Assembly (NCBI GenBank): GCA_016218085.1
Contig: JACREY010000012.1
Location: 1 to 64,000, forward strand
Origin: Ignavibacteriota bacterium
GTDB taxonomy: Bacteria > Bacteroidota > Ignavibacteria > Tepidaquicellales > Tepidaquicellaceae
Length of the DNA: 64,000 bases
Direction: 5' to 3'
Shown piece by piece: positions 1,784 to 38,444 of this stretch. Positions within the stretch are counted from its first letter, which is position 1; each line of letters starts with the position of its first letter. The notes under the pieces were generated by a model. That model worked only from the letters and a program-made list of their open reading frames with translations, was not told the DNA's origin and made no database searches. The position numbers and the translations under genes are program-made.

Positions 1784-2314
1784 TCAGTCCAAATCAAGCG
1801 ACAGTACACCTGCCTTATTTTTTACGTAATATTCTGCCGAACTGTATTTCCATTCTGTCGGATCTGTTACCAGTTCAAGCTTTACCGGATTAAAATGTAT
1901 ATAATTTATTTTCTGAGAATACATATATTCACTCATAATTGTTTTTGGTTGGAATCCTTCCTGCCACACCTGATATGTCCTTCCTGTTTTGTATTCTTTT
2001 TTATTTTCTTTTAATAATTTCAAAATACTCTCTTTTCCGTCGGATTTAAGCTGTCTGATTTTCTGCTTTGCTGAATACGATTTAATTAATTTCATAACAT
2101 TACAGAGTTCATCGCTTTGCAAAAGCAGGTGAAAATGATCCGGCAGAAAAACATACGCAACTAATCTTAGGCGTTTTTGTTTTTGATAAAATTTAATCGA
2201 ATCAGTCAGAATATTATAATATTTATCTTCGGTGAAAATTTTTATCCAGTTTACAGTTGTGGAAGTGACGAAGTGTAATGCCTCCGGATTTAATATTTTA
2301 TATCTGGTTCGCAT
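1784..2314 (-). CDS. REP-associated tyrosine transposase (RAYT, Y1_Tnp family)
   Basis: 176 residues, a normal length for this family. Y1 transposases nick single-stranded hairpin DNA through a catalytic tyrosine and a metal-binding HUH pair. Here the HUH pair is H60-F-H62 in LPDHFHLLL. The likely nucleophile is Y138 in the characteristic NYIHFNPV block. The N-terminus HFVTSTTVN is the usual first strand. RAYTs are domesticated IS200/IS605 relatives that mobilise REP palindromes in trans, not themselves. Four palindromes with matching arms lie at 1661, 1728, 2325 and 2578, so protein and substrate are together. The frame is intact and both active-site motifs are present, so the enzyme may still work. 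Copy C of the palindrome sits only 10 bp upstream of the ATG, in the likely leader of the mRNA. Confidence 0.93.
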   Translation of the reverse strand: MRTRYKILNPEALHFVTSTTVNWIKIFTEDKYYNILTDSIKFYQKQKRLRLVAYVFLPDHFHLLLQSDELCNVMKLIKSYSAKQKIRQLKSDGKESILKLLKENKKEYKTGRTYQVWQEGFQPKTIMSEYMYSQKINYIHFNPVKLELVTDPTEWKYSSAEYYVKNKAGVLSLDLD

Positions 2315-13923: not shown

Positions 13924-14378
13924 AATAAGAACATAAAAACCCGCGGAGCGGGTTTCCTGTTAATAGAAAAAATAAAACAGAAAAGAACAACCCCGTAGGT
14001 CTCGGACTCGCCGTGGCGAGGGTTGCCCCAAAACGTAACAGGAAACCCCTACGGGGTTTTATATCGTCTGACTCAACTTCTATTAACAGGAAACTCCTAC
14101 GGAGTTTCTGTTCTCGTTACAAGGTTTATAATCCAATTTGCTCAATAGCCACTAGCTTTGCGCTCTTTGCATCTCGAAGATCCGCCTGGGTGGACGCCGT
14201 GGTGGATAGCTGACGGATAAAAAGATATTGGGATTGCAAATTTTACAAATTTTATAAATCTTAAGAATCTTATGAATCTTTAAATCCATTTGATTTTCAA
14301 TATAAGTTAAATAATGAAATTACTATATTATTAGGTTTGATGCGATAAAACGGTAAAAAACGATAAATTTATAAGAAA

Positions 14379-24300: not shown

Positions 24301-24456
24301 AGCAGTTGAAAGTTCATAAAGTTTATAAAGTCCATCAAGTTAAGAGCTTTTGCTCTTATGCTTTTTCTTTATACTTTATAAACTTTATGCGCTCTTTGCA
24401 TCCGCCGTGGCGGACAAACTTTATGCGCTCTTTGCATCCGCCGTGGCGGACAAACT
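24301..24456. repeat. Inverted word array with central hairpin and duplicated cassette
   Basis: Between two convergent genes. Left arm: AGAGCAGT followed by AAAGTTTATA-type 9-bp words. Centre: hairpin AAGAGC-tttt-GCTCTT. Right arm: the reverse complement words (CTTTATAAACTTTAT). The right arm is interrupted by two tandem copies of a 36-bp unit (about 24385-24456) that reads TGCGCTCTTTGCAT + CCGCCGTGGCGGA + CAAACTTTA. The central hairpin could terminate transcription from both sides. Confidence 0.8.
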
Positions 24457-27026: not shown

Positions 27027-27470
27027 ATTAGAAAAATAAATTTCCTGTCGCGGGGAGTCTCTCCGATGATTTGTATCGGAGGACTCCCGTAAAAAAATAT
27101 TTCACCCCTTCGGGGTTTCCGCTCTTAACTCTCAAAAGCTTAGCGTCTTTGTGTCTTAGTTTGAAAGCTCTTCGCTCTTCATTCAGAATTCATAATTTGC
27201 GTTCTTTGCATACCGATTTATCGGGACATAATTCAGAATTTTAAATTGCTCTAACGCTCTTTGTTCTTTGAAAAATCTTTGTATTCTTAGTGCCTTAATG
27301 GTGAAAGGCTCTTAGCTCTTAACCCTGAAAAAAATCGGCTCTTATCTGCACAAATCCTCGCTCTTTGAGCTCGCCGTGGCGGGAGCGTTATCTGCGTTCA
27401 AAAGATTTTGCTCTTCCTCCGTCTACTGTTTTCCGTTGTTTTAATAATCAAAAAATTTTAAGTTATCCAT
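27027..27470. other. Repeat-filled gap before ispF
   Basis: About 440 bp without a gene. It holds the second GAGTC-CCGAT hairpin, a CACCCCTTCGGGGTTTCC hairpin near 27104-27120, and many short word repeats (CTCTTAACTCT, TTCTTAGTGCCTTAATGGTG). Cassettes headed GCGTTCTTTGCAT (about 27204) and CGCTCTTTGAG + CTCGCCGTGGCGGGAG (about 27359) interrupt the word DNA. No promoter could be singled out. Confidence 0.75.
27051..27089. repeat. GAGTC-CCGAT hairpin repeat, copy 2
   Basis: A 39-bp palindrome in the same orientation as copy 1, closer to the minus-strand copies at 38445 and 38721. It continues into the AAATATTTCACCCCTTCGG block that is also found, inverted, next to the copy at 38445. Confidence 0.85.
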
Positions 27471-38106: not shown

Positions 38107-38444
38107 ACATAAAATTATAAAAAAATGCATCCTTAAAAAACACAAAAAAAAATATCCAAAGAGCAGTTTGTAAAGTTTATAAAGTTTATAAAGTTTATAA
38201 AGTAAGAACGGAGAGCAAGAGCTTTCACCACTGAGGCATCAGCCACGGCGGATCTCCAACACGGGCACTAAGTTTTTTGAGGGTAAGAGCTGAGAGTATT
38301 TGCCACAGATTACGCAGATTAAACGGATTTCCACTTCCGCCACGGCGGGCTCCCCGGCGACTCTTTGAGGCTCAAAGAGCGAGAGCTATGCACACGGAAA
38401 GAGCGGAAACCCCGAAGGGGTGAAATATTCCGGTTTTATTTACA

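Follow-up and report, generated by a model that had tools for sequence, protein, structure and literature searches.

In this study, we analysed a stretch of 64,000 nucleotides from an Ignavibacteriota genome (hereafter the window) and describe a cassette of about 27–36 bp that we regard, with a probability of roughly 0.7, as a non-autonomous mobile DNA element of very small size, analogous to the Small Dispersed Repeats (SDRs) of cyanobacteria. What we observe is a defined unit with covarying structure and sharp boundaries. It is dispersed and nested, its sites are found both filled and empty, and it turns over. An earlier note on this DNA had pointed to small hairpin cassettes in word-repeat DNA, and their presence could be confirmed: TGCGCTCTTTGCAT occurs exactly at three sites of the window (14159, 24388 and 24424) and with one mismatch at 27198, while GCTCTTTGCAT with at most one mismatch is found eight times versus 1.44 expected, a count reached in 0 of 100 shuffles. 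The genome itself (G000, 3.3 Mb, 98% complete) was compared with its congener G001 and with G194 from the same family; the site positions in these two coincide with those on contigs of 'Ignavibacteriae bacterium fen_1279' and 'fen_1257', respectively.

The cassette consists of two adjoining hairpins, a head with a 3-bp stem and the 7-nt loop GYTCTTT, followed by TCCGCC-GT-GGCGGA or TCCCGA-N-TCGGGA, a second hairpin with a stem of 6–7 bp of the form T-CC...GG-A, in whose long form the head loop is often present too (TCCCGAT-GTTCTTT-ATCGGGA). Two cassettes of 27 bp lie at 24388–24450 in the spacer that separates a DUF3127 gene from an opposing ORF, within an array of 9-bp words and separated by one such word, CAAACTTTA (24415–24423, plus strand). 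The first carries the head TGC-GCTCTTT-GCA (24388–24400, plus strand), supported by covariation, and the second hairpin TCCGCC-GT-GGCGGA (24401–24414, plus strand), while the second cassette shows the same head sequence (24424–24436, plus strand) followed by TCCGCCGTGGCGGA (24437–24450, plus strand). In front of them, the host array (24309–24387) runs from AAAGTT.ATAAAG words over a terminator-like AAGAGCTTTTGCTCTT (24342–24357) to the inverse words ACTTTATAAACTTTA. The tandem period of 36 bp given in the earlier note holds, being the sum of a 27-bp cassette and a 9-bp word, and its assignment of ACA as the end of the unit had to be revised: because the trailing CA belongs to the word CAAACTTTA, the cassette comprises 27 bp and is made up of the head TGCGCTCTTTGCA and the hairpin TCCGCCGTGGCGGA, whose T and A pair. 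For tandem copies such as 24388/24424, local duplication can equally account for the arrangement.

The third cassette has its head at 14159–14171 (plus strand), in the centre of the degenerate palindrome CCACTAGCTT^TAGCTGACGG (the caret marks a junction), for which an intact empty palindrome, CCACGAGCTTTAGCTCGTGG at L256:16952 (minus strand), provides the model. Its second hairpin is split by a 21-bp cassette of a second type, TCGAAGATCCGCCTGGGTGGA (TCGAAGA plus TCCGCCTGGGTGGA, 14174–14194, plus strand), behind which the rest of the hairpin follows at 14195–14206 (plus strand). The palindrome thought to be changeable does vary among the other copies, but at 14159 it is the normal TC^CGCCGTGGTGGA hairpin that has been interrupted. 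A fourth cassette, TGC-GTTCTTT-GCA plus TACCGATTTATCGGGA, lies between ATTCATAATT and CATAATTCAGAATT words (27198–27226, plus strand), and a fifth displays another stem, CTC-GCTCTTT-GAG, with CTCGCCGTGGCGGG (27357–27383, plus strand). One further CTC-GCTCTTT-GAG head was seen on the minus strand at 38371–38383, followed by a complex GC-rich repeat. Degenerate tandem words of 7–9 bp (TTTATAAAC, TATTTGC, AATTCATAATTCAG) are abundant in intergenic DNA throughout the genome, e.g. at 24309–24387 and 27170–27330 of the window; heptamer direct-repeat arrays of another sequence have been published for Beggiatoaceae (PMC4679880).

The conservation initially ascribed to the head applies to its loop, while its sequence is not fixed, the head being a hairpin with a free stem which looked conserved because the copies compared were all TGC/GCA. 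Head stems change with compensation between TGC/GCA, CGC/GCG, CAC/GTG, CTC/GAG, CGT/ACG and TAC/GTA, and a perfect complementary 3-bp stem is present at 18 of 34 GYTCTTT sites preceding N3 and YYCS in 850 kb, where about 0.5–0.7 are expected. Covariation was counted on an arms-only alignment from which the second loop had been cut out; for its 29 distinct sequences, 98.5% of the cells of both stems are paired and the covariation score amounts to 0.612, while shuffles gave 0.237 and slid controls no more than 0.15. An independent whole-genome pattern search in eight genomes, in which all 16 YRC x GYR combinations were allowed, returned Watson-Crick head stems at 113 of 125 sites (49 expected if independent), with the chi-square value overstating the significance, as these sites are related sequences; its reversed-pattern control gave no matches. 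GTTCTTT ranks first of all 7-mers for hairpin enrichment at a p of 7e-6, which is marginal after correction for ~8,000 heptamers, and predicted DNA folding energies are only 1–1.4 sd below shuffles for the 27-mers and 5 sd below for the 34-mer. At L070:7173, L237 and L353:234, the second hairpin holds further inner hairpins or inserts within its loop, TCCCGATTAACTGCGACAGCAGTTCATCGGGA being one example.

The proposal that the cassette is an insertion is supported by exact restoration of the word period upon excision, by paralogous empty copies and by congeneric spacers lacking the cassette. Taking the cassette out brings the words back into phase or re-forms a known palindrome, exactly in either case. 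After the flanks had been rejoined by script, a junction-spanning word recurred locally in 9–13 of the 31 cases if the net change was zero, the number varying with word length, and at similar rates for shifts by whole words (7 or 9 bp), with few matches at most other net changes; these values refer to local exact matches, the 12-mer version with one mismatch being uninformative since 91% of random 12-mers pass it. Among palindromes, GTCATCCCCGCATG^ATTTTGGCGGGGATC is filled once, at L260:13148, and about nine empty copies of GTCATCCCCGCATG^NTTTARGCGGGGATC are found in the same 850 kb, one of which differs from the rejoined L260:13148 by a single base. An empty TCCTG^TTCTTTAGG at L248:17007 has its filled counterpart in G194, at L297:980. 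Within the window, AGCGTTATC^TGCGTTC (27384–27399, plus strand, junction at 27392) is the empty paralogue of L272:5225 on the minus strand, where AGCGTAATC^TGCGTTC is filled by CGTGTTCTTTACG plus CCCGCCGTGGCGGG. The cassette looks mobile, inserting cleanly and preserving its structure more than its sequence.

Comparison within the genus points to the same behaviour in both directions. The G001 spacer orthologous to 24388, flanked by proteins about 70–84% identical, contains the word array and no cassette. In the opposite direction, the aligned G000 spacer lacks a cassette that G001 carries at L237/L390, and in the alignable orthologous spacers of G000 and G001 no position is occupied by a cassette in both genomes. 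The target duplications which the earlier note had suggested looking for were not seen at cassette sites: palindrome-loop insertions show neither duplication nor deletion of the target, while a duplication of one word within an array would escape detection. No constant target bases were found at insertion sites. Dyad symmetry at the junctions is only slightly above that of neighbouring positions (6.6 versus 5.5 of 10), suggesting that hairpin loops represent one class of targets among others. At L272:13579 and 13534 (minus strand), two CAC-stem cassettes with different second hairpins are separated by two 9-bp words and share the same word phase, which suggests separate insertions or an old duplication.

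Copies were counted in 850 kb of G000 stretches and by additional genome searches. The 850 kb contain about 30 dispersed cassettes, from which roughly 110 per genome can be extrapolated, and these are intergenic with very few exceptions, though ORFs make up about 0.9 of this sequence; no orientation preference or sense bias relative to genes was found in this census. In a class-wide scan, exact heads were present in 13 of 294 genomes and concentrated in one family, with 30 in G194, 11 in G000 and 8 in G001. Head and palindrome thus occur as a unit outside the window, across many genomes, and they are more than a part of the repeated words, since the cassette also interrupts palindromes containing none of them. 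No cassettes with a TCCCGA/TCCGCC hairpin were detected on viral contigs, and GC skew was too weak for the replication strand to be assigned.

The cassette is not the only small hairpin unit in this DNA. Units of the second type, TCGAAGA plus hairpin, were observed at 14174–14194 within the type-1 cassette described above and, as a similar TCGAAGATGCGCCGTGGCGT unit, in the loop of a CGTC-type palindrome at L246:13501 and at L248:15250, where the two copies face opposite ways with respect to the palindrome. Beside the RAYT gene of the window, the palindrome CGTTCCCAAC...GTTGGGAACG is split by a third form, AGCCTGTCCCGAAACATCGGGATC. Several small hairpin units hence insert into the loops of other hairpins. 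At 1661–2640, three CGTTCCCAAC...GTTGGGAACG palindromes carry an inner AGCCTGTCCYGAAACATCGGGATC unit, while an empty palindrome is present nearby at the same locus.

In our reading, the element inserts precisely, without duplicating or deleting its target, where DNA readily turns single-stranded: in tandem words of 7–9 bp and in loops of palindromic repeats, other cassettes included. We propose that it would move as folded single-stranded DNA, with a cellular enzyme acting in trans to copy or paste it. The most plausible class for this enzyme is Y1/HUH, with other enzymes besides Y1 being possible movers. This mechanistic step, taken alone, is put forward tentatively, at somewhat below even odds. 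A candidate of this enzyme class is encoded in the window at 1784–2314 (minus strand); this Y1 transposase matches the REP-associated class NF047646 with 107 bits, and its neighbouring repeats are of a different palindrome family. G000 contains six Y1_Tnp (Y1/RAYT-type) matches, and among their flanks inspected none carried a cassette; several of these matches (L238–L243) are accompanied by a palindrome family of their own, e.g. CAACCCCTACGGGGTTG, AGCCCACGGTTTTAACCGTGGG or GCCCCGAAGGGGCGACCTG. In favour of single-stranded DNA over RNA, besides the six Y1_Tnp matches and the absence of RVT_1 genes from G000 and G001, Y1 counts are higher in cassette-bearing genomes, a weak excess at p of about 0.04 with phylogeny ignored; against a simple RAYT link, the inspected Y1 genes have other palindromes at their flanks and most cassette-free genomes also carry Y1 genes.

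The presence of RAYT-class genes raises the question whether the cassette could itself be a genuine REP element, in other words a palindrome that its cognate RAYT recognises and spreads. Being short, palindromic, intergenic and present in many copies, it shares with REP/REPIN elements (PMC3116915, PMC2817692) the short intergenic hairpins, the occurrence in genomes with Y1 transposases and the expected clean insertion. However, its consensus TGCGTTCTTTGCATCC... lacks the GTAG or CGTC tag tetranucleotide, no cassette lay next to the Y1 genes that were inspected, no cognate RAYT neighbour was found, and the cassette comprises two different hairpins whose stems are free, where a REP has a single conserved one. 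Furthermore, the GTCATCCCCGC...GCGGGGATC repeat of this genome resembles CGTC-tagged palindromic repeats (PMC3733652), which are likewise short intergenic palindromes, but constitutes the interrupted target and not the cassette. We therefore consider a REP origin improbable. Insertion into a palindromic repeat is also known for IS1397-type elements (cited in PMC3116915), though the insert there is an entire insertion sequence that encodes a transposase of its own, and not a 27-bp unit. The cassette is not a MITE either: the target-site duplication that would go with the terminal inverted repeats of a transposon was not seen in the palindrome-loop insertions, although a one-word duplication may be present within arrays.

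An RNA-mediated route, in which the transcribed cassette would be reverse-transcribed or reverse-spliced into DNA as suggested for SDRs, appears improbable to the same degree. A secondary structure that is kept while the sequence varies freely is a typical feature of RNA, and for the Nostoc SDRs Elhai et al. (2008) reportedly came to the same conclusion. In the present case, the RNA route is weakened by the absence of RVT_1 (reverse transcriptase) matches from G000, despite its completeness, and from G001, by their occurrence in only two of the eight cassette-bearing genomes (as set by the criterion of the pattern search) and by the missing sense-strand bias relative to genes. Still less probable is an origin without mobility, by replication slippage and intrastrand template switching at stalled forks, with quasipalindrome correction keeping the stems complementary. 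The location of cassettes in slippage-prone tandem words, the seemingly interchangeable loops and stems and the tandem duplication at 24388–24450 are in line with such a process, but the same 27–36 bp unit recurs in the same internal order at unrelated targets genome-wide and in other genera, and its fixed loop sequence goes beyond what local template switching can supply. That the cassette is a functional RNA or terminator kept at the 3' ends of genes is highly improbable, for although its hairpins stand between genes, as the window pair does between the DUF3127 gene and the opposing ORF, orientation is not tied to transcription, no T run follows the hairpin, congener spacers lack the cassette and neither position nor orientation is conserved at orthologous genes. 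Nor is it an intrinsic terminator, a G+C stem with a T run in sense orientation being absent, and no Rfam family matched in the window.

The mobile-element reading finds a close precedent for a structure that had seemed unfamiliar at first. Elhai et al. (2008) reportedly described SDRs of 21–27 nt in Nostoc, often situated within tandem heptamers, of which some are said to share a structure with compensatory changes and some to be nested, and reportedly proposed an RNA intermediate for their movement. The SDRs of Nostoc punctiforme and relatives resemble the cassette in size range, intergenic dispersal, tandem heptamer-like repeats as setting, shared structure with compensatory changes, precise insertion in a short target and nested copies. 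In contrast to them, the cassette belongs to another phylum, has the fixed loop GYTCTTT with free stems, includes palindrome loops among its targets and resides in a host for which no reverse transcriptase was detected. As far as the descriptions go, the cassette works like an SDR. For SDR5, PMC4390886 reports precise insertion between nucleotides 3 and 4 of HIP1, and PMC3116915 cites Elhai et al. for SDRs.

In the literature searched, no earlier description of the cassette in this lineage was found. Such mobile elements have been described before mainly in cyanobacteria, and the cassette appears to be among the smallest mobile DNA elements. To our knowledge, elements below 30 bp are known to move in very few places. 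A further-reaching reading, in which a ~27-bp element recognised by its shape (two hairpins and a fixed heptamer loop) moves as folded single-stranded DNA without reverse transcriptase, targets hairpin loops and direct repeats and forms a class independent of both REP/RAYT pairs and retro-elements, seems rather unlikely to us. The set presented here combines covarying structure in eight genomes, exact filled and empty pairs and a host without detected reverse transcriptase, and this combination makes the question of RNA versus DNA testable. The cassettes further show how elements of this kind build mosaic, nested intergenic repeats in Ignavibacteria-related genomes.
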